A DNA stretch of 40,028 bases, taken from positions 1 to 40,028 of the forward strand of contig JAJFGO010000017.1 in NCBI GenBank assembly GCA_021776095.1, written 5' to 3'. The notes under the pieces are model-generated. The model worked only from the letters and a program-made list of their open reading frames with translations. It was not told the origin of the DNA and did no database searches. A program made the position numbers and the translations under genes. Origin of the DNA: Kiloniellaceae bacterium. Lineage in GTDB: Bacteria > Pseudomonadota > Alphaproteobacteria > Kiloniellales > J153. The first letter of the stretch is position 1. Each line of letters begins with the position of its first letter. Shown here piece by piece: positions 1,225 through 25,752 of this stretch.

Positions 1225-1270
1225 TGGCTCACGCATCATCGCGCCCGAGAAGCCATCGAGGGGCGGGCGG

Positions 1271-1654: not shown

Positions 1655-1692
1655 GTCGGTCTCCCTTGTTCGGCAAGTTACCCTTGCGCGGT

Positions 1693-2856: not shown

Positions 2857-3008
2857 CGCGTTATCCCCCTTGCCGATGCCGGACGCCAAAAGGCCGGGCC
2901 CAGGCCCGTCCTGCGGAATTCTGCCCTGCCGTTTGCCCTGTCCACCCGGTCAGGTCAATATGCGATGAAACATGGCCGAAGCCGCAAGCACCGGGAGGGC
3001 AAACCGCT

Positions 3009-3971: not shown

Positions 3972-3975
3972 GATA

Positions 3976-4938
3976 ATGACCAGCCTTTTGCCACAAGCGC
4001 GAGCGTGCATGGCCGACAGCATTCTACAGACCATCGGCAGTACGACTCTTATGGAACTTCGCCATGTGGTGCCGGCCGGACACGCCCGCGTTCTGGTGAA
4101 GGTGGAGGCAGAGAATCCGACCGGCAGCATGAAAGACCGCATGGCGCTGGCCATGATCGAAGCGGCGGAAGCCGACGGACGCCTGCGAAATGGCGGCCGG
4201 GTTGTGGAGTACACCGGCGGCAGCACAGGTGTCTCACTGGCCTTGGTCTGCGCGGTAAAGGGCTACCCCTTGAGCATTGTCACCTCCGATGCCTTCTCCC
4301 AGGAAAAACGCACCCAGATGCAACTGTTCGGCGCCGAGTTGACTCTGGTGCCCAGCGTCGGGGGCGGCATGACCAAGGAACTGACCCAGAACATGATCGA
4401 AGCCGCCCGTCGGATCAGCGAAGAACCGGGCAGCTATTGGACGGATCAACTGAACAACCGCGACCAGATCGCCTGCTACCTTGAGTTGGGCGAGGAGATC
4501 TGGTCGCAGACGAGTGGGCGAGTCGATGCCTTCGTGCAAAGTGTCGGCACCGCAGCATCCGTGTGCGGCGTGGCGACGGCTTTGCGCCGCCACAACCCGG
4601 GCGTTCATATTGCCGCGGTCGAACCGAGCGAATCGCCCGTGCTGTCGGGCGGCAAGACCGGCAGCCATGCCATAGAGGGTGTCGGCGCCGGCTTCGTCGT
4701 GCCGCTGTGGGACGAAACGATCGTCGACGCCATCCACACGGTCTCGACGGAAGAAGCCATGGCCATGGCGCGGCGCTTGGCCCGCGAGGAAGCGCTTTTC
4801 GCCGGCACCTCGACCGGCGGCAATGTTATCGCCGCATTGCGCGCAGCGGAACGGCTGGGGCCCGACGCCACCGTTGTTACACTGATGGTCGACTCCGGTC
4901 TTAAGTACCTGAGCACCGATCTGTACAAGGACACGTGA
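3976..4938 (+). CDS. Cysteine-synthase-fold PLP-dependent enzyme
   Basis: This 320-residue protein has the fold type II PLP layout of cysteine synthase and cystathionine beta-synthase. The Schiff-base lysine lies in NPTGSMKDR near residue 48, the glycine-rich phosphate loop GTSTGGN is near 275, and the tail DSGLKYLSTDLY is typical of the family. The substrate-binding loop, normally TSGNTG in CysK, reads TGGSTG here, so the usual Asn is Ser. This suggests an acceptor other than O-acetylserine. The ATG at 3976 starts 4 bp after the ureohydrolase stop with TTAGGATA ahead of it; an ATG at 4009 is a weaker alternative. Placement in a catabolic operon argues for beta-elimination or amino-acid breakdown over cysteine synthesis, which is inference. 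Confidence 0.85.
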   Translation: MTSLLPQARACMADSILQTIGSTTLMELRHVVPAGHARVLVKVEAENPTGSMKDRMALAMIEAAEADGRLRNGGRVVEYTGGSTGVSLALVCAVKGYPLSIVTSDAFSQEKRTQMQLFGAELTLVPSVGGGMTKELTQNMIEAARRISEEPGSYWTDQLNNRDQIACYLELGEEIWSQTSGRVDAFVQSVGTAASVCGVATALRRHNPGVHIAAVEPSESPVLSGGKTGSHAIEGVGAGFVVPLWDETIVDAIHTVSTEEAMAMARRLAREEALFAGTSTGGNVIAALRAAERLGPDATVVTLMVDSGLKYLSTDLYKDT

Positions 4939-4969
4939 GTCCGCTGAGCAAATCAAGAGGAAGACCTTC

Positions 4970-6709: not shown

Positions 6710-6725
6710 GAATGTGGAAGCCGCG

Positions 6726-7823
6726 ATGAGAAACGATACAGAGTTCCACGTCGCGGTCATGGCCGGCGACGGCATTGGGCCGGAGGTCATGGCGCCCTGC
6801 TTGGATCTCTTGAACGCGGTGAGCACGCGGGTAGGTGGGTTTTCCTGCCGCTTCGAGGCGGTGGAAGCCGGCGCCGGATACTACGTGCAGCACGGCACGG
6901 CGCTTTCAGAGGAAAACCTGAAACGCGCGGCGTCGGCGGATGCGATCTTGCTGGGCGCCGCCGGCCTGCCGGACATTCGCTATCCCGACGGGCGCGAGAT
7001 CGCGCCGCAGATCGATATCCGCATCGCCCTCGACCTCTTCGCCGGGGTGCGCCCGGTGCGCTCGATCCCGGGGCTGGCCGGACCGCTGAGCGATCCGCGC
7101 GCGCAAAGCCTCGATTTTGTGCTGGTCCGCGAATCGACCGAGGGGCTGTTCGCCTCCATGGGCAAGACCCGGATCGTGGACGACGCGACCGCCTACGACA
7201 CCATGGAGATCACCCGGACCGGCAGCGAGCGCCTGTTCGATTTCTCCTTCGAATTGGCGCGCAGGCGCAAGGCACTGGGTTCGCCGGGCATGCTCACCTG
7301 TGTCGATAAGGCCAACGTCTTCGGTGGATTCGCCTTCTTCCGCAAGATTTTCTACGAGCGCGCGGAGAAGTTCCCGGAGATCGACGCCCGGGCCGCCTAC
7401 GTTGACGCCACCGCGCTCAACATGGTGCGCAACCCCTGGGCCTTCGACGTGATGGCGACCGAGAACATGTTCGGCGACATCCTTTCGGACCTGGGCGCCG
7501 GCCTGATGGGCGGCATGGGGGTTGCGCCCTCGGCCGATATCGGCGCCAAGCACGCGGTCTTCCAACCCTGCCACGGTACCGCGCCGGACATCATGGGCAC
7601 CGGTAAGGCCAACCCGACGGCCATGTTCCTCTCCGCCGCCATGATGCTGGACTGGCTGGGCGAGCGCCACAGCGAGGCTAAGGCGGTCGAAGCGGGACGC
7701 CTGCTGCAAGGCGCCGTCGAGGCCGCCTACGCGCCCGGGGACTTGCGCCCTTGCGAACTGGGCGGGACCAGCGGCCTGAAGGACATCACCGCACGGGTGG
7801 CCGAGGCCCTGGCGAAGGCGTAA
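6726..7823 (+). CDS. Isocitrate/isopropylmalate dehydrogenase family oxidoreductase (tartrate/isopropylmalate type)
   Basis: This 365-residue beta-decarboxylating dehydrogenase oxidises a 2-hydroxy acid such as 3-isopropylmalate, tartrate or malate with NAD(P). Seen are VMAGDGIGPEVM at the N-terminus, the substrate loop VRESTEGLFAS, CVDKANVF with the catalytic lysine, and the Mg/substrate segment ATENMFGDILSDLGAGLMGGMG. The nucleotide loop FQPCHGTAPDIMGTGKANPTAM follows. The substrate loop differs from the RELTGG of LeuB, so leucine biosynthesis is unlikely. The ATG at 6726 begins the conserved region, 16 bp after the dehydratase stop; the longer open frame upstream overlaps the dehydratase and is rejected. 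It converges on the SDR gene with 7 bp between stops. Confidence 0.88.
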   Translation: MRNDTEFHVAVMAGDGIGPEVMAPCLDLLNAVSTRVGGFSCRFEAVEAGAGYYVQHGTALSEENLKRAASADAILLGAAGLPDIRYPDGREIAPQIDIRIALDLFAGVRPVRSIPGLAGPLSDPRAQSLDFVLVRESTEGLFASMGKTRIVDDATAYDTMEITRTGSERLFDFSFELARRRKALGSPGMLTCVDKANVFGGFAFFRKIFYERAEKFPEIDARAAYVDATALNMVRNPWAFDVMATENMFGDILSDLGAGLMGGMGVAPSADIGAKHAVFQPCHGTAPDIMGTGKANPTAMFLSAAMMLDWLGERHSEAKAVEAGRLLQGAVEAAYAPGDLRPCELGGTSGLKDITARVAEALAKA

Positions 7824-10942: not shown

Positions 10943-12613
10943 TTAGAACAGCCCCTCGATCTGGCCTTGCTCGTTCAGGTAGATGCTGTTGGCCGAGGGA
11001 ACCCTGGGCAGACCGGGCATGGTCATGATCGCCCCGGTCACAGCGACGATGAATTCCGCCCCGGCGGAGAGACGCAACTCGCGGATCGGCACCGTGAAAC
11101 CCTCGGGCGCGCCTTTGAGATCCGGATCGGTCGAGAAGCTGTACTGGGTCTTGGCCATGCAGACCGGGAAGTGTCCGTAGTCTTTCTGCAATTCCTCGAA
11201 ACGCTTCCCGATCGCCCCATCGAACGTGATGTCGTCGCCGCCGTAGATCTTCTGCACGACGGTGCGCACCTTTTCGACCAGCGGCATATCGTCGGGATAG
11301 AGTGGCTTGAATTCCGCTTGGCCCGAATCGGCTAGCTCGACCACGTGCTTGGCTAGGTCCTCGGTCCCGGCGCCGCCGTCCGCCCAGTGCGAGCAGATGA
11401 TCGCCTTGGCACCGAAGCCCTCGGCGGTGGCGCGCACGGCCTCCAACTCCGCGTCGGTATCGGTGATGAACTGGTTGATCGCGACCACGGCCGGCACGCC
11501 AAAGCTCTTCACGTTCTCCAGGTGGCGGGCCAGGTTGGAGCAGCCTTGCTTGACCGCCTCGACGTTTTCCTTGCCGAGGTCGGCCTTGGCGACGCCGCCA
11601 TGCATCTTCAGCGCACGCACCGTCGCGACGATCACCGCAGCCGCGGGCTTAAGGCCGGCCTTGCGGCACTTGATGTCGAAAAATTTCTCGGCTCCCAGGT
11701 CGGCGCCGAAGCCGGCCTCGGTGACTACGTAGTCGCACAGTTTCAAGGCAGCCTTAGTGGCGATCACCGAATTGCAACCATGGGCGATGTTGGCAAAGGG
11801 ACCGCCGTGCACGAAGGCGGGATTGTTTTCCAGCGTCTGCACCAGGTTGGGCGCGATGGCCTCCTTCAACAGGACCGACATGGGGCCCGGCCCCTTGACG
11901 TCCTTGGCAGTGAGCGGATTGCGCGCGCGATCCTGCGCAATCACGATCTTGCCGAGCCGCTCGGTCAGATCGTTCAGGTCCTTGGCCAGGCAAAAGATGG
12001 CCATGATCTCGGAGGCGACGACGATGTCGAAACCGTCCTCGCGCGGGAAGCCGTTGGCGACGCCGCCCAGGGAGTTGACGATATTGCGCAGCGCGCGGTC
12101 GTTCATATCCACCACGCGCTTCCAGGCGACCCGGCGCGAATCGATGGGCGGCTCCAAACCCCAATAGATGTGGTTGTCGATCAGGGCCGAAAGCAGGTTG
12201 TGGGCGATGCCGATGGCATGGAAATCACCGGTGAAGTGGAGGTTGATATCCTCCATGGGCACGACCTGGGCATAGCCGCCGCCGGCCGCGCCGCCCTTCA
12301 TGCCGAAGCAGGGCCCCAGCGAGGGTTCGCGCAGGCACATCATGGCCTTCTTGCCGATACGGTTCAGCCCGTCGCCGAGGCCGACCGTGGTCGTGGTCTT
12401 GCCCTCGCCGGCCGGGGTCGGCGTGATCGCAGTGACCAAGATCAGCTTGCCGTCCGGCTTGCCCTCCAGGCCCTTCAGGAAATCCGGCGAGATCTTGGCT
12501 TTATGATGCCCGAACGGCATGAGGGCATCGGCCGGAATATCCAACTTGGCGCCGATCTCCGAGATCGGCTGCATGGTCGCTTCGCGTGCAATTTCGATAT
12601 CGCTTTTAGGCAT
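10943..12613 (-). CDS. fhs: Formate--tetrahydrofolate ligase
   Basis: This 556-residue cytosolic enzyme makes 10-formyl-tetrahydrofolate from formate, ATP and tetrahydrofolate. The P-loop-like [20 protein letters not shown] is near residues 66-85. Other hallmarks are [25 protein letters not shown], the [10 protein letters not shown] segment, and [16 protein letters not shown] in the C-terminal half. The length is normal for Fhs, and AGAGG precedes the ATG. It follows the formyl-THF hydrolase-like gene by 45 bp in the formyl-CoA array. Formate released from formyl-CoA by the transferase would be its natural substrate here. A general folate role is also possible, but the neighbourhood favours assimilation or oxidation of one-carbon units from the imported acid. 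Confidence 0.96.
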
Positions 12614-12658: not shown

Positions 12659-13576
12659 TCAGCCCAGGCGTGCGCCCTGTTTAAGTCCTACCGCCGCGGC
12701 AAAAGCCCCGGCTGCGATCTTGCCCTCTCCCTCCGGGCGAACCCTTTGCACCTGGATCGCGCCGCCCGGCGCCGCGACTTTAATGCTATCGCCCGTCACC
12801 TCGATCACCTCGCCCGACGCGCCCGCGGTGGCGCCGTCGATCTTCCTGGCGTCGAATATCTGCAGGGTCTTGCCCTCGTGCCGAGTCCAGGCCCCCGGTT
12901 GAGGATTGGTGCCGCGGATCAGATTGTAGACTTGATCCACCGGCTTCGACCAATCGATCTCGGCGTCCTTTTTGCGGCACCAGCTTTCATAGCTCGCCTT
13001 GGAATGATCCTGCGCAATGCGCTGGGCCCGGCCCTCACGGAACAGATCGACCGCCTCCAGCATCGCTGCCACGCCTAGATCGAAGATCTTCTTGAAATAG
13101 ACCGTGCCCAGGGTGTCGTCCGGGCCGATTTCGACCTCTTTCTGGAGCAGGATATCGCCTTCGTCGAGCCCGTCGTTCGGATAGAACAGGGTCAGCCCGG
13201 TCTTGGTGGCACCGCCGATGATCGGCCAATTGATCGAGCTGGGGCCACGGTGCAGGGGCAGCAACGAGGGATGGAAGCAGATCGACCCATGGGTCGGAAT
13301 TTCCCGCGCCTCCTCCGGCACGAAGATCGTGACGTAGGCCATGAGGCAGAGATCGGCGTTTAGCGCGCGCATCTGGGCCAGGACCTCGGGGGCCTTGAAG
13401 TTGGCCGGCTGATAAAGCGGCAGACCCTTCTCGAGCGCCGCCTCCTTCATGGGATCGAGCGGCCGCCCCTCCTTGTCCGGGGCGCAGTAAACCGCAACCA
13501 CGTTGTCCCCGCGCTCTAGCAAGGCGTCCAAGACGGCCTTTCCGAAGGCCTGCTGTCCCATCACGATCAGTCGCAT
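12659..13576 (-). CDS. Stand-alone 10-formyl-THF hydrolase/formyltransferase domain protein (ALDH1L N-terminal-like)
   Basis: This 305-residue protein has a formyl-transferase N-domain and an Fmt-type C-domain. Sequence flow (IVMGQQAFGKAVLDALLERGDNVVAVYCAPDKEG, FHPSLLPLHRGPSSINW, DGLDEGDILLQKE, RGTNPQPGAWT) resembles the N-terminal hydrolase domain of 10-formyltetrahydrofolate dehydrogenase more than methionyl-tRNA formyltransferase. Catalytic-type residues H102 (in FHPSLLP) and D141 (in DEGD) are present. No aldehyde dehydrogenase domain follows. ATG 13576 is preceded by GGGGAA; an upstream in-frame ATG at 13597 is less likely. Beside fhs, simple hydrolysis would be futile, so it may be a regulator of the formyl-THF pool or transfer formyl groups to or from another carrier; this is inference. 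Confidence 0.85.
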   Translation of the reverse strand: MRLIVMGQQAFGKAVLDALLERGDNVVAVYCAPDKEGRPLDPMKEAALEKGLPLYQPANFKAPEVLAQMRALNADLCLMAYVTIFVPEEAREIPTHGSICFHPSLLPLHRGPSSINWPIIGGATKTGLTLFYPNDGLDEGDILLQKEVEIGPDDTLGTVYFKKIFDLGVAAMLEAVDLFREGRAQRIAQDHSKASYESWCRKKDAEIDWSKPVDQVYNLIRGTNPQPGAWTRHEGKTLQIFDARKIDGATAGASGEVIEVTGDSIKVAAPGGAIQVQRVRPEGEGKIAAGAFAAAVGLKQGARLG

Positions 13577-13708
13577 GACATTCCCCGTTCGGTGCATTCA
13601 CTTAGCGTCCGGCGCCAGGCCGGACTGTTCTGAAAACGCGGTCATCTTGACCTGGCGCGAACAAGTGCGATTTCGAGGGCGGTTCGCGCCGCTCGGCCCC
13701 GCACCCGG

Positions 13709-14956
13709 TTAGATCGCGCCGGCGCTCCGTGCCTCGGCGATGTCCTCGTCGCTGAGGCCCAACACGCCCTTGAGGATCTCCTCGGTATGTTCGCCCAAGA
13801 GCGGCGAACGCGTCACCTCGCTGGGCGAATCGGACATCTTGATCGGGTTGCCGACGCTCAGGTACTTGCCGCGGGTCGGATGGTCGATCTCAACGACCGT
13901 GCCGCTGGCCCGCAGGCTCGGCTCCTCCGCGACTTCCTTCATGGACAGGATCGGGCCGCAAGGGATGTTCAGCGGATTGAGGATGTCCATGGCCTCGACC
14001 TTGTCCTTGGTCATGGTCCATTCCTCGATCGTGGCGAAGATCGCTTTCAACTTGGGTAGACGGGCCTCCGGCGTGGCGTAGCCCGCGTCCTCGATCCACT
14101 CGTCCTTGCCGATCACCTTGCAGATCGCCGGCCAGACCGCGGCCTGGGTGATGAAGTAGATATAGGCGTTGGGGTCGGTCTCCCAGCCCTTGCACTTGAG
14201 GATCCAGCCCGGCTGACCGCCGCCCGAGGCATTGCCCGACCGCGGCACCGCGTCGCCGAATTCGCCATCGGGGTACTGCGGATATTCCTTGAGTGGCCCA
14301 TGGGCCAAGCGCTGCTGGTCGCGCAGCTTGACCCGGCACAGGTTGAGCACCGAATCCTGCATGGCGGCCTGGACCCGCTGACCCCGGCCGGAGGTTTCGC
14401 GTTGATACAGGGCGGTCACGATGCCCAGGGCCAGATGCAGGCCGGTGCCCGAATCGCCGATCTGCGCACCGGTTACCACGGGGGGCCCGTCGTCGAAACC
14501 GGTGGTCGAAGCGGACCCGCCGGTGCACTGGGCAACGTTCTCGTAAACCTTGCAGTCTTCGTACTTGCCTGGGCCGAAGCCCTTGACCGAGGCATAGATC
14601 ATGCGCGGGTTGAGTTCCTGAATGCGCGCCCAGGGAAAGCCCATGCGGTCGAGCGCGCCCGGCGCAAAATTCTCCACCAGAACGTCGCAGGCCTTGATCA
14701 GTTTTTCGAGAACCGCTTTGCCCTTCTCGTTCTTGCTGTTCAGGGTCAAGGAACGCTTGTTGTGGTTGAGCATGGTGAAGTAAAGGCTATCGACATCGGG
14801 AATGTCGCGCAGTTGGCCGCGCGTGGCATCGCCCACGCCGGGACGTTCCACCTTGATGACGTCGGCCCCGAACCAGCCCAAAAGCTGCGTGCAGGTCGGG
14901 CCCGACTGGACGTGGGTGAAATCCAGAATACGGACACCCTCTAGCGCTTTACCCAT
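13709..14956 (-). CDS. frc: Formyl-CoA transferase (class III CoA-transferase)
   Basis: This 415-residue CaiB/BaiF protein should swap CoA between formyl-CoA and a carboxylic acid such as oxalate. It follows the Oxalobacter Frc sequence closely, as recalled: [54 protein letters not shown] and the C-terminal [10 protein letters not shown]. The catalytic aspartate is D168 in IGDSGTG. The mobile glycine loop, GGGGQP in Frc, reads SGGGQP (residues 244-249). AGAGGAA precedes the ATG. It lies 40 bp downstream of the ThDP enzyme that would supply formyl-CoA. Family and formyl-CoA link are strong; oxalate as acceptor is less certain because the paired ThDP enzyme is not a canonical oxalyl-CoA decarboxylase. 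Confidence 0.9.
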
Positions 14957-14996: not shown

Positions 14997-16724
14997 CTAT
15001 TTGTACATGGTTTGGGCTTTAGTGCCCGGCGCGTATTCGTTGGGGTCGACCCAGATATTGATGACCGCCGACTTGCCGCTGCTGTTCACCGATTCGCGCG
15101 CGCGCCTCAAGGCCGGGCCGATCTCCTTGGCGTCGCGGACCTCTTCGCCGTAACCGCCCAGCATGCGGCCGAAGTGGCTGAACTCCACGTCGCCCAGCTT
15201 GTTGCCGACGTTGCCGCGCTGAGCCCCGTACTTGGCGATCTGGCCGTATCGAATTTGATTCATCGCAGAATTGTTGCCGATCACCGCGATGTAGGGCGCG
15301 CCGAAGCGGTTGGCGGTTTCCATATCGAATGCGGTCATGGAGAAGGCGCCGTCGCCGTAGTAGCACAGGATCTCTTTTTCCGGATGGGCCAGCTTGGCCG
15401 CCATGGCAAAGCCGGTGCCCACCCCCAGGCTACCCAAAGCGCCGGGGTCCATCCACTGGCCCGGCCCGTGCGGGCGCACCGCCTGCGCCGAGATCGTGAC
15501 CACGTCGCCACCGTCGCCGATATAAATCGTGTCGTCGCCCAGGAACTCGTTGATCTCATAGGCCACGCGGTAGGGATGAATCGGCGACTGGTCGCTGGTG
15601 AACAGCGGCATCAACTTTTGGAGGGCGATCGCTTCCGCCTCGCGCAACTGCTGCATCCATTGCTGGCGCTGCTGGCGCGCCCCCTTGTCGATCCGTGCCG
15701 AGGCCGCCTGGGCGACCGCCCCCAGAATCGCGCCCGGATCGCCGACCAGGCCGAGCGAGATATCCCGGTTCTTGCCGACCGTGCGGTAATCCAGATCGAT
15801 CTGGACCAGGGTCGCGTCCTTGCTGATGCGCTTGCCGTAGCCCATGCGGAAATCGAAGGGCGTGCCGACGATCAGGATGACGTCGGCCTTGTCGAAGGCC
15901 AGGCGCCGGGTGCGATCGAAATGGTGCGGGTCGCCGGGCGGCAGCATGCCGCGGCTGGCCCCGTTCAGATACGCCGGGATATCCAGTTCGCGGACCAGGC
16001 CGATCGCCTCGCGATGACCCTGCGCGGCCCAAACCTGTTGGCCGAAGAGCACCGCCGGGCGTTCCGACTTGACCAGAATATCGGCCAGCTTTTCGATATC
16101 GGCGGGATCGCCGATGGATTTGGTAGAGGCCCGGTAATGCCCAGCGGCCGGCAGCACCGCCTTGCTGACCTCGACCTCGCGGTCCAGCACGTCGCGCGGG
16201 ATTTCCAGGTACGACGGGCCGTAAGCGCCGTTGAAGCATTCGCGCGCGGCCATGGCGATCATGTCGGCGACTCGTTCGGTGCTCGACACCGAGGCCGCGA
16301 ACTTGGTGATCGGGCCCATCATGTCGACATGGGGCAGGTCCTGCAGCGACCCCATCTTGTGCTGGGTCAGCGCGCCCTGCCCGCCGATGTGCAGCACCGG
16401 GCTTTCCGACCGGAAAGCGGTGGCGATGCCGGTCACCGCATTGGTGCAGCCGGGGCCCGCCGTCGTTACCACGCACCCGAGCCGCCCGGTCTGACGCGCG
16501 TAACCGTCGGCGGCATGGGCGGCGACCTGTTCGTGACGGACATCGACGATGCGGATACCCTCGTCCAGACAACCGTCGTAAATATCGATGATGTGACCGC
16601 CGCACAGGGTGAAGATGGTATCGACGCCCTCGCTCTTCAGGGCCTTGGCGACCAAGTGGCCGCCGGAGACCACGGTGCCGGATTTGTCTTTTTGGGCCAG
16701 GGTATCGCTTGCCGTGCTGGACAT
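14997..16724 (-). CDS. ThDP-dependent 2-hydroxyacyl-CoA lyase / oxalyl-CoA decarboxylase family enzyme
   Basis: This 575-residue ThDP enzyme has the acetolactate-synthase layout. The cofactor-activating glutamate is E65 in RHEQ, and the ThDP/Mg motif runs from GDG (457-459) to NN (484-485). A GDGGDVV segment near 403 is typical of actinobacterial IlvG/2-hydroxyacyl-CoA lyase relatives. Residues [11 protein letters not shown] (124-134) parallel the MG-x-x-QE-x-PQVE of human HACL1; Oxalobacter oxalyl-CoA decarboxylase differs there. Either reaction yields formyl-CoA, with an aldehyde/ketone (lyase) or CO2 (decarboxylase) as co-product. The ATG has an ideal ribosome binding site (AGGAGG). Its position between gntR and frc makes formyl-CoA chemistry the best inference. 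Acetolactate synthase is unlikely: no small subunit is nearby. Confidence 0.85.
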
Positions 16725-16803: not shown

Positions 16804-17493
16804 TCAGTCGAGATAGTCGACATTGGCCGCGACATGCGAAGCCAGGTTCAAATTGTGTTCGCGCACCAGGCGTTCGGCCAGGTCCGCGTCGCGCCGCTCG
16901 ATCGCCTCGATAATGTGCATGTGATCGATGATCGAACGCTTGGCCCGGTTGTCCTCCGAGATCGTGCGGGCCCGGATCGAACGGATATGGATGAACAGAT
17001 TGCTCGCCATCTCACCAATGAGATCGCATTTGCTCAGCTTTAGAATCATCGAGTGAAAGTCGATGTTGCGCACGGAATACTCGTCGATCCGGGCATTGAC
17101 CTCGTCGCCCTCGAAGCTGGAGAACAAGCGCCGCAGGGTGGCGATTTCCGCGTCGCTGGCCCGCAGGGTGGTCAGGCGCGCCGCCATGCACTCCAGCGCC
17201 GCCCACACCGTGATCATCTCCAGGATTTCTTCCTTGGTCTTACGCACGATGAAGACGCCGCGCCGGGGTACGATGCGGACCAGGCCTTCCTGCTCCAGTC
17301 GGGCCAGGGCTTCGCGAATCGGCGTGCGGCTGATCGCCAGTTTCTCCGACAACTCGCGCTCGTCCAGGCGCAGTTCGGCGTCCTCGGCGTAGATATCCAT
17401 CGAGGTGATGGCGTTCTTCAGGGTCCCGTAGATCTTGTCTTTCAGGCTGAAATTGGCCTCGATCGGGGCGACATCGAGATCTGCTGTTGCCAT
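16804..17493 (-). CDS. GntR family transcriptional regulator, FCD (FadR-type) subfamily
   Basis: This 229-residue regulator has an N-terminal winged helix (about residues 18-85) with the recognition region LAISRTPIREALARLEQEGLVRIVPRRGVFIV. A C-terminal all-helical FCD ligand domain follows. FCD metal/carboxylate-binding residues appear as D/H positions in NIDFHSMI and in the later DHMHIIEAI segment. Such regulators usually sense organic acids and repress catabolic genes. It lies 107 bp downstream of tctA and 79 bp upstream of the ThDP enzyme, in the middle of the cluster. A perfect palindromic operator 45 bp ahead of its start indicates autoregulation; matching operators ahead of tctC and the synthetase pair define its likely regulon. 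Confidence 0.93.
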   Translation of the reverse strand: MATADLDVAPIEANFSLKDKIYGTLKNAITSMDIYAEDAELRLDERELSEKLAISRTPIREALARLEQEGLVRIVPRRGVFIVRKTKEEILEMITVWAALECMAARLTTLRASDAEIATLRRLFSSFEGDEVNARIDEYSVRNIDFHSMILKLSKCDLIGEMASNLFIHIRSIRARTISEDNRAKRSIIDHMHIIEAIERRDADLAERLVREHNLNLASHVAANVDYLD

Positions 17494-17537
17494 AACGCCT
17501 TATCCGTCTTCCTCAGGCCCTTCCGGGACCCGTCTGG

Positions 17538-17554
17538 TGGTATACCTTATACCA
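17538..17554. promoter_or_regulatory. GntR operator 1 (upstream of gntR)
   Basis: TGGTATACCTTATACCA is a perfect 7-3-7 palindrome (TGGTATA, CCT, TATACCA) and fits the T-G-GT-N-AC-C-A style of FCD-type GntR operators. It lies about 45 bp upstream of the gntR start, where bound protein would block the promoter. Nearly identical 17-mers lie at 20842-20858 and 21062-21078. Confidence 0.8.
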
Positions 17555-17600
17555 AAACCCAGGACTGGAAGCAAGCCGCCCGCCCTGGGCGCCGTATCGC

Positions 17601-19106
17601 CTATCCAGCCGCCGCGCGGCGCCTTTTCAGCGCCGAATAGATCGGCATGCAGACCAGCACCGCCGCCATGGCGACGAATACCGCCGACAAGGGACGCTCG
17701 ACGAAGGTCATCACATCGCCGTGGGATATGATCATCGCCTGGCGAAAGTATTTTTCGGCCAGGGGCCCCAGGACGATAGCCAGAACGGCGGGCGCCATGG
17801 GGTAGTTCAGCTTGCGCAGCAGATACCCGGCGATACCGAAGATGAGAATCAGCCAGACGTCGTGCAAAGAGCTCCCTGGGGCGTAGCCGCCAACTAGGCT
17901 GAGCACGAAAATAACCGGCGCCAGGATGGCGAAGGGGGTTCGCAGAACCCAGATGAAGAGCGGTATAAACGCCAGATTAATCAGCAAGGTGAACAAGTTG
18001 GCCGTGTACAGGCTGGCGATCAGGCCCCACACGAACCCCTCGTGAGTAATGAACAGCATGGGGCCGGGCTCCAGGCCCCAGATGATCATGCCGCCCAGCA
18101 GGATCGCCGTGGTCGGCGAGCCGGGAATGCCCAGGGTCAGCATGGGCAGCATGGAGCCGGTGCTGGCCGCATTGTTGGCCGCCTCGGGCGCGACCACGCC
18201 GTTGATCTCGCCCTTACCGTAATTCTTCGAGTTCTTGGACATGCTTTTGGCCATGCCATAGGCCATAAGCGATCCCGGGGTGGCGCCGGCCGCCGGCAAG
18301 ATGCCGACGAAATAGCCGAGCAGCGAACACAGCCCCATGGTGCGCCAAGTCTTGCGCAGCTCGATGATCGCTTGGACGATGTTGCGGAATCCGATCTTGT
18401 GCTGGGCGATCTCGACCCTGCCCTTGCTCGAATCGAGCGTCCAGAGGATCTCGCCGATCCCATAGATGCCGATCGCCAGCACGATGAAACTAATGCCCTT
18501 GTAGAAGCCCGGCAGGTCGAAAAAGATCAACCGCGGCTGCCCGCTGATGATGTCCAGGCCGACGGCGCTGAGGATCAGGCCGAACAGGATGGACAGGATG
18601 GTCTTGGGAATGTCGTCGCCGCTCAGCCCGACAAAGGTCGCGAACGCGACCACCATGAGGGCGAAATTCTCCGCCGGGCCAAAGCGTAGAGCAAATTCGG
18701 CTAAGGGCGGCGCGAACAGAGTAAAGAGAATGACGGCGATCGTGCCGCCGACGAACGAGGCGACCGCGGCCGCGACCAGGGCCCTATGCGCCTCTCCCTT
18801 CATGGCCATCGGCCGGCCGTCGAAGGTTGTCGCCACCGCCGTCGAGGCGCCGGGAATACCGAGCATGATCGAAGAGATCGCGCCGCCGAACATGGCGCCG
18901 TAATAGATCGCTGCCAGAAATATTATGGCGCCGGTCGGGGGTACGAAAAAGGTGATTGGCAAAAGGATCGCGACGCCATTGACCGAACCCAGACCGGGCA
19001 AGGCGCCGACGAACAGCCCCACCGTGCAGCCCAAGACGAGCAACCCGAAGTTAAGCGGTTCGAAGGCCGTCGCGAAACCGCCGGCGAGGTGAACGAGTGT
19101 ATCCAT
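17601..19106 (-). CDS. tctA: Tripartite tricarboxylate transporter large membrane subunit TctA
   Basis: This 501-residue integral membrane protein is the large permease of a TTT-family importer, driven by an ion gradient. Many hydrophobic helices are visible, with the family landmarks VGALPGLGSVNGVAILLP near residue 32, GIPGASTAVATTFDGRPM, and a second repeat-related motif GYFVGILPAAGATPGSLMAYG. TLGIPGSPTTAILLGGM follows in the second half. The length is normal. It follows tctB by 62 bp. TTT systems import di- and tricarboxylates and other organic acids; the sequence does not fix the substrate, but coupling with CoA-thioester enzymes suggests a carboxylic acid that is activated on entry. Confidence 0.94.
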   Translation of the reverse strand: MDTLVHLAGGFATAFEPLNFGLLVLGCTVGLFVGALPGLGSVNGVAILLPITFFVPPTGAIIFLAAIYYGAMFGGAISSIMLGIPGASTAVATTFDGRPMAMKGEAHRALVAAAVASFVGGTIAVILFTLFAPPLAEFALRFGPAENFALMVVAFATFVGLSGDDIPKTILSILFGLILSAVGLDIISGQPRLIFFDLPGFYKGISFIVLAIGIYGIGEILWTLDSSKGRVEIAQHKIGFRNIVQAIIELRKTWRTMGLCSLLGYFVGILPAAGATPGSLMAYGMAKSMSKNSKNYGKGEINGVVAPEAANNAASTGSMLPMLTLGIPGSPTTAILLGGMIIWGLEPGPMLFITHEGFVWGLIASLYTANLFTLLINLAFIPLFIWVLRTPFAILAPVIFVLSLVGGYAPGSSLHDVWLILIFGIAGYLLRKLNYPMAPAVLAIVLGPLAEKYFRQAMIISHGDVMTFVERPLSAVFVAMAAVLVCMPIYSALKRRRAAAG

Positions 19107-19168
19107 CTTACGGTTCCGTCATGCCGGCTGGGGGCGCTGCGATGCCGGGGCTGCGCACCGGTCCATGC

Positions 19169-19666
19169 CTAGAAGAATGTCTGATACAAGGGATAGAACA
19201 GCGGCTCCGTAATCCCCTTGGGCAACAGGATGCGCATGCCGATTTCGAAAAAGAAAAAGGTCAACACGGGCACCGTGACCGCCAGGATACCGGTCGTCAT
19301 CCAAGAGCGCCGGCCGACCAGCCGGACCCAAAACACGAACAAGAACGGGATCGCGACATAGAACCCGAGCCAGGTGATCAGAATCAGCGCCACCAGCAGA
19401 GAACCGCCCGCCATGGCCAAAAGCTTGACCGTCGGACCGTCCATGAAGGGGCCGTGTGTGCGGCTTTCCGGCGTCGCACCCCTTAGGGCGCGGACAAAGA
19501 TCCATGCCGAACAAGCAAGCATGGCCGCCGAGAGCCAGAACGGGAACGCCCCGCCGGCCGGCCCCTTATCGGGGATCCAGCCGACGGGTAGTTCCGCGCT
19601 TTTCCACATCAGGTAGCCGGAAAGCAAGGCGAACACGACAGCCGTAAATAGTTCCGCCCGCCGCAT
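19169..19666 (-). CDS. tctB: Tripartite tricarboxylate transporter small membrane subunit TctB
   Basis: This 165-residue protein has four predicted membrane helices: LFTAVVFALLSGYLMW at the N-terminus, FWLSAAMLACSAWIFVRAL, LLAMAGGSLLVALILITWLGFYVAIPFLFVFWV, and the ILAVTVPVLTFFFFEIG helix. Between the first two lies a periplasmic loop with the family-typical PDKGPAGGAFPFWLS. This matches the small poorly conserved TctB subunit in size, topology and position between tctC and tctA. The ribosome binding site GAGGGACGG precedes the ATG. It serves as the second membrane component of the importer. Confidence 0.9.
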   Translation of the reverse strand: MRRAELFTAVVFALLSGYLMWKSAELPVGWIPDKGPAGGAFPFWLSAAMLACSAWIFVRALRGATPESRTHGPFMDGPTVKLLAMAGGSLLVALILITWLGFYVAIPFLFVFWVRLVGRRSWMTTGILAVTVPVLTFFFFEIGMRILLPKGITEPLFYPLYQTFF

Positions 19667-19715
19667 AGCCGTCCCTCACCTCGTCGCCCGATGCCGTTTC
19701 GCCGTTAAATCGGCC

Positions 19716-20711
19716 TTACTTGATTTCGCCCATAGCCTTGAGCAAATCGTGGTGCTTATCGCGCTCCGCGACGAAGTACGACATGAGGTCGTCGCCAGTC
19801 AGCCACGCCCGGTTCAGGGCCTTCTTGGTCGTGTATTCCTTCCACTCGGCCGACTCGTTGACCTTGCGAAACACCTCAACATAGAAGTCCTGGGCCTCCT
19901 TGGGCATGTTCGGAGGCGCGACCACGCTACGCTGCATGTAGTAGACCAGATCTTGACCCATCTCCTTGAAGGTCGGCACGTCCGGGAACACCCCGATACG
20001 CTCCGGCGTGAAGGCGGCGATGGGCCGGACCCGGCCGGCCTCGAAGAAACCGAGCTGCTCGGAGGGGTTGTTGACGGTCGAGGTGATCTGCTTGCCGACC
20101 AGGTTCTTTGCAACCGTTCCGCCGCCCTTGAAGGGCACATAGGTCATCTTCAGACCGTAGGCTTTCTCAAGCATGGCGGTGACCAGAGAATCCTCCTGGC
20201 CGGTGCCGGTGCCGCCCATGACCCACTTTTCGCTACCAGCCGCCTTAACCGCGGCCACGTAGTCGTCGATGGTCTTGATATCGGAGTCGGAGTTAACCCA
20301 GAGCACAAAGGTATCTTCGGCCAGCCGCGCGACCGGGGTGAATTTCGAGATATCGACGCCGATGCCCGGATTGCGCAAGGGGGTGGTATAGAGGCTGTTC
20401 AGGGTCGCCATGATTACGTGTGGATCGCCGGCCTTGTCTTGCAGATAGCGCAAGGCCTCGGCACCCGAACCGCCACCCTTGTTGACCGGGATGAAGGGCT
20501 GGTTCGAGAAATTGTTCTTCTCGATAATGCTTTGAATCAGCCGGGCCAGGCGATCGGCGCCGCCGCCTTGGCCGGCCATGATGACGAATTCGACCGGCTT
20601 TTGCGGCTGCCAGGCAGCCTGCGCCGGTTGCACGGCTAGGGACGAAACCAAGCCTAGGCCAACGCCCAGGGCGATTCCGCATGACACGGCTCTCATGGCC
20701 AGATTTTTCAC
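19716..20711 (-). CDS. tctC: Tripartite tricarboxylate transporter substrate-binding protein TctC
   Basis: This 331-residue periplasmic binding protein belongs to the Bug/TctC family. It has a signal peptide (VKNLAMRAVSCGIALGVGLG..., cleavage probably after AQA). The mature part follows the family: WQPQKPVEFVIMAGQGGGADRLARLIQSI, PVNKGGGSGAEALRYL, WVMGGTGTGQEDSL, and YVPFKGGGTVAKNLVG. I chose the GTG at 20711 because GGAGG stands 7 nt ahead of it; an ATG at 20744 would place that site inside the gene. It is the first gene of the minus-strand importer operon, with a GntR operator about 130 bp upstream. The ligand is probably a carboxylate; its identity is not readable. Confidence 0.92.
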   Translation of the reverse strand: MKNLAMRAVSCGIALGVGLGLVSSLAVQPAQAAWQPQKPVEFVIMAGQGGGADRLARLIQSIIEKNNFSNQPFIPVNKGGGSGAEALRYLQDKAGDPHVIMATLNSLYTTPLRNPGIGVDISKFTPVARLAEDTFVLWVNSDSDIKTIDDYVAAVKAAGSEKWVMGGTGTGQEDSLVTAMLEKAYGLKMTYVPFKGGGTVAKNLVGKQITSTVNNPSEQLGFFEAGRVRPIAAFTPERIGVFPDVPTFKEMGQDLVYYMQRSVVAPPNMPKEAQDFYVEVFRKVNESAEWKEYTTKKALNRAWLTGDDLMSYFVAERDKHHDLLKAMGEIK

Positions 20712-20841
20712 GAGTAGTCCTCCCATCGGTTCACGTTTCGACACGCCACAAGCGCGCCTTGGTACAACGATGCCAGGTTCCGGGGGATCTGGGGAGTCAC
20801 GATAACCTGTTATAGGCGCCCCATATCCACACCCTGGTCTT

Positions 20842-20858
20842 TGGAATAAGGTATACCA
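20842..20858. promoter_or_regulatory. GntR operator 2 (upstream of tctC)
   Basis: TGGAATAAGGTATACCA read on the other strand is TGGTATACCTTATTCCA, which matches operator 1 at 16 of 17 positions, including the asymmetric central CCT. It lies about 130 bp upstream of the tctC start and overlaps a possible minus-strand -10 box. Confidence 0.75.
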
Positions 20859-21061
20859 GAGGGCAGTCTAGGCATCATTTTTGTCTCTGTACAGGCCCAT
20901 ATCGCGGTTTTCTTACCAACCGGCAGTGGCCAAGCCCGGTTCCCGCACCGCACCAGCTTCGCCTTCCGCGCCGTCCCTGCTCTGCGCCTCATCCCATTCT
21001 GGCTTGTCATTCCAATGACATCCCAGCGGCATCGCACGGGTTGTTGCATTTTACCAATCTC

Positions 21062-21078
21062 TGGTATATTGTATACCA
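21062..21078. promoter_or_regulatory. GntR operator 3 (upstream of the synthetase pair)
   Basis: TGGTATATTGTATACCA has perfect 7-bp half-sites (TGGTATA, TATACCA) identical to operator 1, with a different 3-bp centre (TTG). It lies about 108 bp upstream of the first synthetase gene and overlaps a plausible plus-strand -10 box (TATATT). Confidence 0.78.
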
Positions 21079-21186
21079 ACGATTCGATATCTAGCCATTT
21101 GCACAGCGGTGCAGATCAAGATCGCTTGAGGGGCCCCGAAGAGAGGCCCCGGCGAGGTGCCCGCGAGGGCGCAAAGGGAGGGGCAT

Positions 21187-22374
21187 ATGGATATCCACGA
21201 ATATCAGGCCAAAGATCTGCTTCAGGGCTATGGCCTGCGCACGCCGCGCGGTGGCCTGGCGCGCAGCATCGACGAGGCCGAGACCGTCGCCCGCGCGCTG
21301 CGCGGCAGCCCCTGCGTGGTCAAGGCCCAGGTCTTGGCCGGCGGGCGCGGCAAGGCCGGCGGCATCAAGCTGGCGCGCTCGGTCGAATCGGTCGGGGGCA
21401 TGGCGGCGGAACTGCTGGGGTCGACCCTGATTACCGCGCAGACCGGAACCCAGGGCCGGCCGGTCAAGGCGGTCTATGTGGAGGAACAGGTCGAGGCGGC
21501 GCGGGAGTTGTACCTGGCCGTTCTGGTCGACCGCGGCGCCGGGCGGGTCGCCTTCTTGGGGGCGGCGCAAGGCGGCGAGGATATCGAGGAAACCGCCGTC
21601 CGCGAGCCCGCCAAGCTGAAACGCCTGATCGTCGATTCGAACGACGGCCTTGTGGCGAGCGAGGCGGAAGCCTTCGCGTCCGGCCTGAATCTGGAAGCCG
21701 GCCCGGCCAAGGCCGCCGCGAAATTGATGGCGGGACTCTACAAGGCCTTCGTCGAGCTGGACGCCAGCCTGATCGAGATCAATCCCTTGGTCCTGACCGA
21801 GGCCGGCGATCTCTTGGCGCTGGACGTGAAAATGAGCTTCGACGACAACGCCCTGTTCCGTCATCCGCGGATCGCCGACCTGCGCGACCGCGACGAGGAC
21901 GATCCCAGCGAGGTCGAAGCCGCCCGCTACGAAATCAATTACCTGCGCCTGGACGGCGATATCGGCTGCATGGTCAACGGCGCCGGTCTGGCGCTGGCAA
22001 CCATCGACCTGCTCAAGCAACGCGGCGGTCGGCCGGCCGATTTCATGGACCTGCGCCCTGTGGTCACCCGACAACAGGTCGCGACCGGCTTCAAGATGAT
22101 CCTGCGCAATCCCAAGGTGAAGGCGATCCTGGTCAACATGTACGGTGGCGGCATCTTGCGCTGCGACACCATCGCCGAAGGCATCGCGGAGGCGGTCAAG
22201 GAAGACGGCCTGAAGGTGCCCCTGGTGGTGCGCGCCGCCGGCACCAATATGGAAATCGCGCGCAAGATCCTGACCGGCCAGGCGGTTCCGGCGATCTTCG
22301 CCGACGACATGGCGGAGGCGGCCGAGCGCACGGTCGCGGCGGCCGGTCAGTCTCCGGACGGGGGGGCAAGCTGA
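21187..22374 (+). CDS. Succinyl-CoA synthetase beta-like acyl-CoA ligase subunit (atypical)
   Basis: This 395-residue protein has the ATP-grasp plus ligase-CoA layout of SucC/MtkA. It opens with the hallmark [12 protein letters not shown] and keeps [23 protein letters not shown], and [11 protein letters not shown]. Two normally invariant C-terminal motifs are altered: the usual NFLDVGGGA is replaced by DFMDLRPVV (285-293), and VNIFGGI by VNMYGGGI (316-323). The ATG at 21187 has a strong ribosome binding site (AGGGAGGGG). The pair is under a GntR operator and faces a carboxylate importer, so it probably activates the imported acid with ATP (malate-CoA-ligase-like). A housekeeping TCA role is unlikely given this context and the motif changes. 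Confidence 0.85.
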
Positions 22375-23249
22375 TGGCAATCCTGGCCGACAAGACGACC
22401 AAGGTGATTTGCCAGGGCCTGACCGGCACCCAGGCCAGCTTTCACTGCGAACAGGCGATCGCCTACGGCACCCAGATCGTCGGCGGGGTGACGCCGGGCA
22501 AGGGCGGCACACGGCACCTGCAACTGCCGGTCTACGATACGGTGGCCCGGGCCGTGGCCGAGACCGGCGCCGACGCCAGCCTGGTTTTCGTGCCGCCGCG
22601 CGCGGCCGCGGACGCCATGATCGAGGCGATCGACGCCGAGGTGCCTCTGGTGGTGTGCGTGACCGAGCGCGTGCCGGTGCAGGACATGGTGCGGGTCCGC
22701 CGCAGGCTGGAGGATTCCAGCACCCGCCTAATCGGCCCCAACTCCCAGGGCATCATCACGCCGGAGCAATGCAAGATCGGCATAATGCCGGGGCACATCC
22801 ACTTCCCGGGCAAGATCGGCATCGCCTCGCGCTCGGCCTCGCTCACCTACGAAGCGGTCGGGCAATGCGGCGACGCCCGCCTGGGCCAATCGAGCGTGGT
22901 GGGAATCGGCGGCGACCCGGTCCATGGCCTCGGCTTCGTGGAGTGCCTGGAGCTGTTCCTGCGCGACCCGCAGACCGAAGGCATCCTGCTGGTCGGCGAG
23001 ATCGGCGGCAGCGCCGAGGAAGAGGCGGCCGCTTTCATCGCGGCGGAAAAACCGAAAAAACCGATCGCCGCCTTCGTCGCCGGAACCCACGCCGAAACCG
23101 GCCGCCGCATGGGCCATGCCGGCACGGTCAACGTCTTCGGCCGCGGCGGCGCGGAGAGCAAGCTCGAGGCGCTGCGCAATGCCGGGGTGCGCATCGCACC
23201 CAATGCGGCCGAGATCGGCGCAACCATGCGCCGGGCGATGAGGGGCTAA
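22374..23249 (+). CDS. Succinyl-CoA synthetase alpha-like acyl-CoA ligase subunit (atypical)
   Basis: This 291-residue partner subunit binds CoA and carries the phosphohistidine. H248 in RRMGHAGT is the expected active-site residue, and [11 protein letters not shown] (208-218) supplies the glutamate. CoA-binding features ([29 protein letters not shown]) are normal. Differences from SucD are GPNSQG for GPNCPG (121-126) and SRSASLTYE for SRSGTLTYE. The ATG at 22374 shares one base with the upstream stop (TGATG), indicating translational coupling and equal production of the two subunits. The product is probably a CoA thioester of the acid imported by the neighbouring TTT system; malyl-CoA-type ligases (MtkB) are an alternative model. 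Confidence 0.86.
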
Positions 23250-24219: not shown

Positions 24220-25752
24220 ATGGCCCGATCGCAGCTTCGGCCCCAGCCCGGCCGCCGGCCGCCGCCCCATTTCATGGCCTTGACCCTGGCGGCGGGTGCC
24301 GCGTCGGCACCGAAGCACCGGCAGCTTTACGATCAGATACGTGGCCATGTCCTGAGCGGGCGCCTGACCGGAGGCGCGCGCCTGCCCGCGAGCCGAACCC
24401 TGGCGCGCGAGATCGGCTGTTCCCGAAACACGGTTCTGAGCGCCTACGAGCTTCTGCTGGCGGAGGGATACCTGACCGGAACCCCGGGGTCCGGGACCTT
24501 TGTTTCCAGGGTTCTGCCCGATCAGTTCCTGGCCGTGAACAACGGTCGACCAAGCGGCCCGCCGGACACGCGGGGCACCACCGCCCAGGCGGCGCTGTCG
24601 ACCCGCGGGCGCGTGCTGGCAGAACAGACCCCACGCCCGCGCGGTCCAGCGGGCGCCTTCATGCTGGGCCCCGACGCGGCACACTTCCCGTTCGATATTT
24701 GGGGCCGCATGCTGGGCCGGACCTGGCGCCGGCCAGACCCGGCGCTGCTTCGCTACGGCGACCCGGCGGGGCATCGACCGCTACGCGAGGCGATTGCCGA
24801 ATACCTGCGTGCGACCCGTGCCCTGCGCTGCGACTGGCGGCAAGTGGTGATAACCAGCGGGGCGCAGCAGGCGCTCGACCTTGTGGTCCGGGCCATGCTC
24901 GATCCCGGCGACGCGGTCTGGTGCGAAGACCCCGGTTATGGCGGCCTGCGCGGCCCCCTCATCGCCGCCGGCGCGCGTATCGCGCCGGTGCCGGTCGATA
25001 CGGAAGGCTTGTCGGTCTCGACCGGGCGGGCGCGGGCACCGGCGGCCCGCTTGGCGGTGGTCGCCCCCTCGCATCAATTCCCCTTGGGCGTGGTCATGTC
25101 GCTCGGCCGAAGATTGGAGCTCCTGGACTGGGCGCGCGCCGCCGGGGCCTGGGTTCTGGAGGACGATTACGATAGCGAGTACCGCTATGCGGGCCGGCCG
25201 CTCGCCGCGCTGCAGAGCCTCGATGCCGCGAGCGGCGCCGGCCGCGTCATCTACGCGGGCACTTTTTCCAAGGTGACGTTTCCGTCCCTGCGGATCGGCT
25301 ATCTGGTTGTTCCCGACGCCCTGGTCGAGCCCATGGTCCGGGTGCGCGCCGCGCTCGACGACCATCCCTCGGCAGTGGTCCAACCGGCGCTGGCCGCCTT
25401 TATCGGTGAGGGGCACTTCGGCGCCCATATCCGGCGCATGCGCGCCCGTTACGCCGCGCGTCAGGAATCTCTGATCGCCGCCGCCCAGCGTTGGCTGGAC
25501 GACAAGCTCATCCTAGCCCCGGACGAGGCCGGGCTGCACCTGGTGGCCCGCATGACCCCGGCCCTCAAGCGACGCATGAACGATGCGCAAGCCGCCGAGC
25601 GCGCCGCCGCCGCCGGCATCGCCACCTCCGCCCTATCCGGCTACGCGGTCGAGGCCAGAAGCGATCCCGCCCTTCTGCTCGGCTATGCCGCCGTGCCGGA
25701 AGACCGCATCGAAACCAGCGTGCGCAGCCTGGCCGCCGCCTTGGCCGGCTGA
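24220..25752 (+). CDS. MocR/PdxR-type transcriptional regulator (GntR wHTH plus aminotransferase domain)
   Basis: This 510-residue regulator has a GntR-type winged helix at about 30-105 (LYDQIRGHVLSGRLTGGARLPASRTLAREIGCSRNTVLSAYELL). A linker follows, then a fold type I aminotransferase domain. In the latter, GAQQALDLVVRAMLDPGD, a DPGYGG segment, EDDYDSEYRY and TFSKVTFPSLRIGYLV carry the residues that bind PLP, the lysine being in SKV. MocR proteins use PLP or its adducts to sense vitamin B6 or amino compounds. It is divergent from a PNPOx-family gene and nearly abuts (11 bp) the converging DUF1203 gene. The target is probably the divergent flavoprotein and itself. Confidence 0.93.
   Translation: MARSQLRPQPGRRPPPHFMALTLAAGAASAPKHRQLYDQIRGHVLSGRLTGGARLPASRTLAREIGCSRNTVLSAYELLLAEGYLTGTPGSGTFVSRVLPDQFLAVNNGRPSGPPDTRGTTAQAALSTRGRVLAEQTPRPRGPAGAFMLGPDAAHFPFDIWGRMLGRTWRRPDPALLRYGDPAGHRPLREAIAEYLRATRALRCDWRQVVITSGAQQALDLVVRAMLDPGDAVWCEDPGYGGLRGPLIAAGARIAPVPVDTEGLSVSTGRARAPAARLAVVAPSHQFPLGVVMSLGRRLELLDWARAAGAWVLEDDYDSEYRYAGRPLAALQSLDAASGAGRVIYAGTFSKVTFPSLRIGYLVVPDALVEPMVRVRAALDDHPSAVVQPALAAFIGEGHFGAHIRRMRARYAARQESLIAAAQRWLDDKLILAPDEAGLHLVARMTPALKRRMNDAQAAERAAAAGIATSALSGYAVEARSDPALLLGYAAVPEDRIETSVRSLAAALAG

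Follow-up and report, generated by a model that had tools for sequence, protein, structure and literature searches.

This report concerns a group of genes and operator sites in a 40,028-base stretch of the genome of a Kiloniellaceae bacterium (contig JAJFGO010000017.1; the whole stretch is called the window below). Three copies of a 17-base-pair (bp) palindrome, TGGTATA-N3-TATACCA, stand in it upstream of a gene for a GntR-family regulator of the FCD subfamily (gntR), of a tripartite tricarboxylate transporter operon (tctCBA) and of a SucCD-like coenzyme A (CoA) ligase pair, and a fourth copy stands on another contig before formate dehydrogenase genes. We propose that the GntR protein acts on all four operators, that the units behind them serve oxalate catabolism, and that a thiamine-diphosphate enzyme of the gntR operon, which we name TppB, substitutes there for oxalyl-CoA decarboxylase (Oxc). 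We put the probability of this whole scheme at roughly 0.7.

Operator sites and their form

Scanned at up to three mismatches, the whole window contains exactly three matches to the palindrome, against a mean of 0.12 and a maximum of 2 in 100 dinucleotide shuffles. A preliminary description of the window, made from the sequence alone, had listed three sites, two perfect and one with a single change. The scan returned them at the same coordinates (Table 1), and the statement that the window holds no further full copy stays true even at three mismatches. The site centres lie 53, 106 and 117 bp upstream of the start codons of gntR, tctC and sucC, respectively. Operators 1 and 2 had also been said to share an asymmetric centre in opposite orientations. 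They do so, with CCT in operator 1 and AGG in operator 2 on the plus strand, identical on opposite strands, and this is largely a case of the general asymmetry of the operator described below.

Copies are rare in the genome as a whole (4,976,739 bases, or 4.98 Mb, in 122 contigs). Perfect copies number three, namely operators 1 and 3 and one on another contig (C27:44187-44203); the only one-mismatch copy is operator 2, and the only two-mismatch copy is at C110:3049. Allowing two mismatches therefore adds just two sites beyond the window. Base composition predicts 0.0014 perfect copies per genome and 0.08 with up to one change, and a reversed control had no match at up to one mismatch. Chance palindromes are hardly credible as an explanation: at up to three mismatches the pattern is no commoner than the reversed control (28 sites vs 61) and is background, but three perfect sites far exceed the expected number and the sites are conserved in relatives.

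The fourth operator lies 60 bp before a 59-codon open reading frame (ORF) of the DUF3553 family, which is followed by the genes fdhB and fdhA. Sites before fdhBA were also seen in the relatives G001 (one mismatch) and G006 (perfect). By eye, an ORF in G001 (L114:6209-6421) looks like the DUF3553 ORF. In other relatives the sucC operator is followed by sucCD and then by fdhBA (L123, L124, L132, L133), or fdhBA belongs to the gntR series, on the downstream side of frc or fhs (L071, L075, L078).

Table 1. Operators and genes discussed in the text; positions are those of the window unless a locus (L016) is named.
Feature	Position	Strand	Description
Operator 1	17538-17554	-	0 mismatches; upstream of gntR-tppB-frc-fmt-fhs
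Operator 2	20842-20858	-	1 mismatch; upstream of tctCBA
Operator 3	21062-21078	+	0 mismatches; upstream of sucCD-like ligase pair
Fourth operator	L016:8188-8204 (= C27:44187-44203)		perfect; before DUF3553 ORF
fhs	10943-12613	-	formate-tetrahydrofolate ligase; NF010030 905.6 bits, cut-off 652
fmt	12659-13597	-	Fmt-like formyltransferase; PF00551 and PF02911; Fmt model 163.1 bits, below cut-off 201.5
frc	13709-14956	-	formyl-CoA:oxalate CoA-transferase; TIGR03253 721.2 bits, above cut-off 504.2
tppB	14997-16724	-	thiamine-diphosphate enzyme in the oxalyl-CoA decarboxylase slot
gntR	16804-17493	-	GntR-family regulator, FCD subfamily; PF00392 54.7 bits (gathering 27), PF07729 81 bits (gathering 24.3)
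tctA	17601-19106	-	large membrane subunit, tripartite tricarboxylate transporter; PF01970 480.6 bits
tctB	19169-19666	-	small membrane subunit; PF07331 64.9 bits
tctC	19716-20744	-	periplasmic binding protein; PF03401 101.9 bits
sucC-like	21187-22374	+	CoA ligase subunit beta; NF001913 464.3 bits, cut-off 370
sucD-like	22374-23249	+	CoA ligase subunit alpha; PF02629 and PF00549
DUF3553 ORF	L016:8265-8444		between fourth operator and formate dehydrogenase genes
fdhB	L016:8594-10309		NuoEF-like fused subunit; after DUF3553 ORF
fdhA	L016:10126-13071		formate dehydrogenase alpha subunit; TIGR01591 759.2 bits, above cut-off 666.25

In the window, gntR-tppB-frc-fmt-fhs form one minus-strand series running from 17493 to 10943, tctC-tctB-tctA form a second, with all three transporter domains present, and the sucCD-like genes run the opposite way. 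A one-mismatch site stands at the place of operator 2 in G001 and G003 (L048, L049). Operators 2 and 3 are spaced 220 bp apart in the window and 189, 213 and 102 bp apart in G001, G003 and G007. Because the spacing differs among relatives, we do not claim looping between them. A sigma-70 scan of positions 17400-21200 gave one consensus promoter where 1.2 were expected; it overlaps operator 3 yet faces away from sucC. For that reason we do not assign a particular promoter element to each site, even though TGGTATA resembles an extended -10.

The form of the operator was read from 35 distinct sites (of 70), which have at most two mismatches by selection, include those of loci fetched for holding a site, and were each oriented toward the better half. 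So oriented, they give the consensus TGGTATAC-nnn-A-t-a-CCA, in which the second half varies at positions 13-14. The selection pattern sets no base at position 8, and C stands there in 34 of the 35, a figure inflated by the orienting. The operator is thus asymmetric, one half, TGGTATAC, being strict and the other looser. A refined pattern, TGGTATAC-N3-AYRCCA, gave 49 matches in 61 genomes of the order against 5 for its reversed control, and was present in 26 of 31 gntR holders vs 4 of 30 others; since many of the same genomes supplied the sites behind it, these counts are not independent of the 35 sites above or of the holder comparison below.

Conservation of the sites and the identity of the regulator

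Orthologues of gntR were called at an identity of at least 44% (the next match was at 38%) and were found in 40 of the 190 genomes searched, a count that includes the source genome and two genomes, G054 and G060, entered on fragment matches. Of 40 loci fetched with these orthologues, 38 could be tested by taking the best-scoring 17-mer from the 450 bp that precede gntR; loci that had been fetched for holding a site (L114-L133) were excluded from all conservation fractions. The loci are mutually related, and one species may be present in both genome sources (the Frc proteins of L074 and L149, for example, are nearly identical). A site with at most two mismatches was present upstream of gntR in 32 of the 38 loci, and in 33 the best site was equalled by no more than 1 of 200 shuffles. 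Among the gntR-fetched loci, the tctC-upstream site was present at up to two mismatches in 11 of 18, and the sucC-upstream site at up to one mismatch in 5 of 7. The regulon proposed in the preliminary description, joining the ligase pair to the importer and the formyl-CoA array, is supported by this conservation. Its scope was too narrow, as it left out the fourth perfect site, before the DUF3553 ORF and formate dehydrogenase genes, and the enzyme in the Oxc slot of the array.

The sites also follow the regulator from genome to genome. Of the 30 relatives that have a gntR orthologue, 24 contain a site with at most one mismatch, vs 3 of the 28 that lack the orthologue (p = 8e-8, uncorrected for relatedness); since the genomes are related, such p-values overstate the effect. 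The 24 holders have 44 such sites. Of these, 40 have a gntR, tct, sucC, fhs or fdh gene as neighbour, if two that precede a tctBA copy with no tctC match (G013:C83) are included. The four without a regulon-type neighbour are at G007:C160, G008:C39 (a contig end), G030:C99 and G030:C218. The preliminary description had named a motif common at unrelated promoters as an outcome that would refute its claim, and the motif is not common there.

Several observations count against a regulon of this shape. The best gntR-upstream site has three to six mismatches in 6 of the 38 loci (L071, L073, L074, L077, L079, L085). The tctC site was missed in 7 of 18 loci (L065, L071, L076, L079, L080, L081, L083) and the sucC site in 2 of 7 (L085, L087), and in the three gntR-fetched loci with fdhBA no separate site was found before fdhB. 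In a wider collection of 53 testable, named, distant loci, 22 had a gntR-upstream site with at most two mismatches and 43 with at most three, so that 31 had three or more; 29 had a best site reached by no more than 1 of 200 shuffles. Nisaea, Hansschlegelia, Neomegalonema and Burkholderia sp., all of them named organisms of the TppB type, have three mismatches each, and Paraburkholderia, Caballeronia and several others among these 53 loci have no convincing gntR-upstream site. The footprint is weaker outside the order. The regulon claim is unchanged, and so are the odds we give it, because the claim rests on the near relatives.

Some 1.4 Mb genomes (f37; L087, L236-L238) retain tctA, tppB, frc and a diverged gntR (41-44% identity), and have a perfect operator between gntR and tppB.

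The GntR protein itself is presumed to be the operator-binding protein. It has only distant named relatives in NCBIfam and the PDB. Its residues Asn143, His147, His191 and His213 are invariant in all 17 orthologue rows; they could correspond to the Asp/Asn and three His in the pocket of metal-dependent FCD effector domains, a metal site that would be able to hold a small dicarboxylate. It is quite improbable that the sites are bound by some other protein, for example the MocR-like regulator encoded at 24220-25752, or by several FCD regulators, with the linkage to gntR incidental. The window does have the MocR gene close by, on the downstream side of the ligase genes, G001 and G003 have it there too, and in G035 a one-mismatch operator copy precedes a different FCD-type GntR gene (L129:6540-7360), which also weighs against our assignment. 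That gene is followed by an enolase-superfamily gene and an aldehyde dehydrogenase gene. However, the sites occur with gntR in many loci whose examined stretch shows no MocR match, they also accompany genes on other contigs, and NanR, itself an FCD-type GntR regulator, binds the element GGTATA (PMC8012715).

NanR, the repressor of the Escherichia coli sialic acid regulon, is among the closest known systems. According to the excerpt of PMC8012715, it too combines a GntR DNA-binding protein of the FCD type having an effector domain with a GGTATA element and governs several operons of one catabolic pathway, and it binds asymmetrically, one domain on a consensus and the other on a non-consensus element, which we cite as an analogy only. 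The two differ in that NanR uses direct GGTATA repeats (PMC8012715), whereas the halves here are inverted around N3, and the window protein scores 61 bits on the NanR model, below its cut-off of 260.

Oxc or TppB in the same operon slot

The slot that tppB occupies in the window is held by a canonical Oxc in many other gntR operons. Of seven proteins tested from this slot, five scored 955-1004 bits on the oxalyl-CoA decarboxylase model TIGR03254 and two, of the window type, scored 212 and 235. We examined 95 gntR loci from two collections, calling type at an identity of at least 60%; two lacked a gntR match of at least 43%. Among the remaining 93, 53 had Oxc, 27 had TppB and none had both. The Oxc-type loci include those of Cupriavidus, Enterovirga, Bradyrhizobium, Azospirillum and Ancylobacter. 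In 58 relatives, Oxc was over cut-off in 14 and TppB was present in 16 (that of G036 a fragment), again never together, and Oxc was not found in the source genome, which is rated 95% complete.

The same pattern holds across the class, in draws of 372 and 385 genomes that overlap but may differ in membership. Frc was over cut-off in 33 of 372 genomes and Oxc in 17 of 372, and TppB was present in 16 of 385. The 33 Frc genomes comprise 16 with Oxc, 15 with TppB, none with both and two with neither (G297, G369); one Oxc genome (G186) and one TppB genome (G130) fall outside the Frc list. In the samples searched, Oxc and TppB are mutually exclusive.

To follow the exchange we built a careful Frc tree from 62 of 68 rows, leaving out three long or paralogous rows (L075, L148, L156) and three diverged ones (L170-L172). 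The Oxc/TppB label changes at least eight times on it, six of these changes being forced by well-supported branches, and 0% of 200 bootstrap trees show only one change. A quick tree with the six rows included gave 10 changes. Quick trees of TctC and gntR, both containing long rows or long branches, gave 5 and 12. Equivalent function would be expected to produce just this, one enzyme being exchanged while regulator and transferase stay the same; some of the switches could also stem from frc having moved between lineages. The Frc of G166, a genome of the window's class, is almost identical to that of Nisaea denitrificans, from which Alphaproteobacteria can be deduced as that class.

One contig labelled Candidatus Eremiobacterota (L178), outside the Pseudomonadota, carries a gntR at 55% and a TppB at 66% identity; this could be transfer or mis-binning.

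Two counts weigh against a strict exchange within one regulon. Neither enzyme was present in the stretch examined at 13 of the 93 gntR loci. Furthermore, gntR was in the examined stretch of only 11 of 15 class-wide TppB loci, the other four being the short stretches L226, L227, L239 and L240, so TppB is not tied to the GntR protein.

What TppB does is harder to say, and its own sequence speaks in part against a decarboxylase. It falls well short of TIGR03254 (210.3 vs 739.4 bits) and scores 228.8 on a second Oxc model, its identity to Oxc is 23-25%, and its nearest solved chain is a lyase, AcHACL (7pt3, 266 bits). The active-site Tyr-Glu pair of Oxc (in the motif DYEE), seen in all five Oxc rows, is replaced by Leu127-Gln128, as in the lyase, in all 11 TppB rows. 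The column of AcHACL Glu493, the acid-base residue, holds Tyr in the five Oxc rows, presumably the residue that binds the oxalyl carboxylate, and TppB has Ile there. In the excerpts of PMC8760513 and PMC13327070, Glu493 matters for proton transfer in the lyase while decarboxylation by Oxc needs none such, and Tyr483 and Ser553 of OfOXC bind the oxalyl carboxylate. TppB shares His44 with AcHACL as well as Leu127 and Gln128; it differs in having Cys for Gln41 and Ile for Glu493. Its residues match neither known type, and leave the reaction undecided. A conserved C-terminal stretch, APGT..QTMY, might, as a guess, act as a lid and keep the acyl group in place. A structure prediction from six sequences was poor (mean predicted local distance difference test score, pLDDT, 59.8, with several active-site stretches below 50) and backs no claim.

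The top NCBIfam match of TppB, PRK05858, is named acetolactate synthase, and this too speaks against a decarboxylase. The score is below cut-off (440.5 vs 587 bits). It is very improbable that TppB is an acetolactate-synthase-like enzyme that is unrelated to formyl-CoA and sits in the operon by chance: tppB adjoins frc in 14 of the 15 class-wide loci, with about 5 kb between the two in the remaining one (G286), and TppB and Oxc exclude each other.

A more serious alternative, though still an unlikely one, is that the regulon is real but that TppB organisms use a 2-hydroxy acid. The ligase would then form a 2-hydroxyacyl-CoA, TppB would cleave it, giving an aldehyde or ketone besides formyl-CoA, and the latter would be cleared by Frc together with the formate enzymes. 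The kinship to AcHACL and the retained Leu127-Gln128 favour this, as does the score of TppB on the actinobacterial 2-hydroxyacyl-CoA lyase model NF058623, which exceeds those on the Oxc models although it fails the cut-off (350.6 vs 600 bits). A GntR gene also adjoins a 2-hydroxyisobutyrate lyase cluster in the excerpt of PMC7176365. Against it, Glu493 is Ile in all 11 TppB rows, though the human lyase HACL2 also carries Ile at this position (PMC13327070). The window Frc is 74-83% identical to the Frc of 16 Oxc-type loci with a full gene, and 62-81% identical to that of a further Oxc-type set. In the trees of Frc and of TctC the two types are intermixed, which fits one substrate.

The proposed oxalate pathway and its neighbours

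Oxalate catabolism is the most likely role of the regulon, as judged from gene content. We favour it because Frc scores as the oxalate type, because orthologous operons hold a canonical Oxc, and because the carriers belong to genera known as oxalate users. In Cupriavidus necator, deletion of frc-oxc stops growth on oxalate (PMC7486775).

In the scheme that we prefer, the GntR protein would bind the four operators and most likely repress gntR-tppB-frc-fmt-fhs, tctCBA, sucCD and DUF3553-fdhBA, until a pathway metabolite at its C-terminal domain releases it. TctCBA would import oxalate, a role suggested by its context, and the SucCD-like ligase would prime the cycle by making oxalyl-CoA. TppB would decarboxylate this to formyl-CoA, from which Frc would hand the CoA to the next oxalate, freeing formate. 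The dehydrogenase would oxidise the formate, or Fhs would attach it to tetrahydrofolate. We regard it as an even bet that TppB is a second oxalyl-CoA decarboxylase from a different thiamine-enzyme branch, repeatedly traded with Oxc in one GntR regulon, and that a SucCD-type ADP-forming ligase activates oxalate directly.

Direct activation of oxalate is our preferred reading of what the ligase pair may do. The SucC-like protein passes the model of ADP-forming succinate-CoA ligase (NF001913) and fails that of the malate-CoA ligase MtkA (NF010647, 441 vs 604 bits). The genome has three further SucC-like genes at 46-51% identity, so the citric acid cycle probably does not depend on the window pair alone. 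Since formyl-CoA is lost by hydrolysis, a ligase would have its use despite the recycling of CoA by Frc; the half-life of formyl-CoA in quenched mixtures is given as 1.9 h in the excerpt of PMC3720670. The same excerpt reports that succinyl-CoA was no donor to oxalate with YfdE or UctC, Frc itself being outside that test.

GntR regulons and frc-oxc operons are known kinds. The operons of C. necator likewise pair an oxalate-type Frc with conversion of formyl-CoA to formate (PMC7486775), whereas the window has TppB for Oxc and places TctCBA, the SucCD-like ligase, the Fmt-like protein and Fhs under one GntR. The best solved relative of the window Frc is YfdW (1pt5) of E. coli, but the yfdXWUVE operon is activated by EvgA in the acid response and contains the Oxc YfdU (PMC3720670). 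In Pandoraea on kraft lignin, formyl-CoA transferase and formate dehydrogenase were raised, and the mentions of GntR in the excerpt of PMC5987411 are general. In the open-licence literature searched, we found no account of oxalate or formyl-CoA genes being controlled by a GntR regulator that uses this operator. As far as that literature reaches, this regulon and the substitution for Oxc are new.

If TppB is a second oxalyl-CoA decarboxylase, it is in use in 15 of the 33 class-sample genomes that carry an oxalate-type Frc. Surveys of oxalate use based on oxc would then overlook TppB organisms, and the lack of oxc would not mean the lack of the pathway. TppB would also be a new enzyme type for formyl-CoA chemistry, and the regulator and operator of a CoA-dependent oxalate pathway would become testable across many proteobacteria. 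The regulon would further supply candidates for a Tct-type oxalate importer, an ADP-forming oxalyl-CoA ligase and a decarboxylase of a different thiamine-enzyme branch.

Among the neighbouring genes, the Fmt-like gene between frc and fhs is retained in many TppB and Oxc operons, and its product may shift the formyl group to or from folate. Universal-stress-domain (Usp) proteins adjoin fhs in L123, L124, L126 and L128, which are of the Oxc type, and in L120 (G026), of the TppB type. An ApbA-type oxalyl-CoA reductase was sought among six extra ORFs of these five loci, and none was found; similar ORFs also occur in L132 and L133. Usp-domain proteins are encoded by each of the four ORFs examined in L123, L124, L126 and L128, which lie between fhs and the tct operator, and the two extra ORFs in L120 gave a Usp and a short MCP match. 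At 139-7823 the window holds a separate group without operator copies, which comprises genes for an Ldh_2 dehydrogenase, a DUF1207 protein, a pyridoxal-phosphate (PLP) enzyme and an IlvD/Edd dehydratase, and an isopropylmalate/tartrate-dehydrogenase-like gene.

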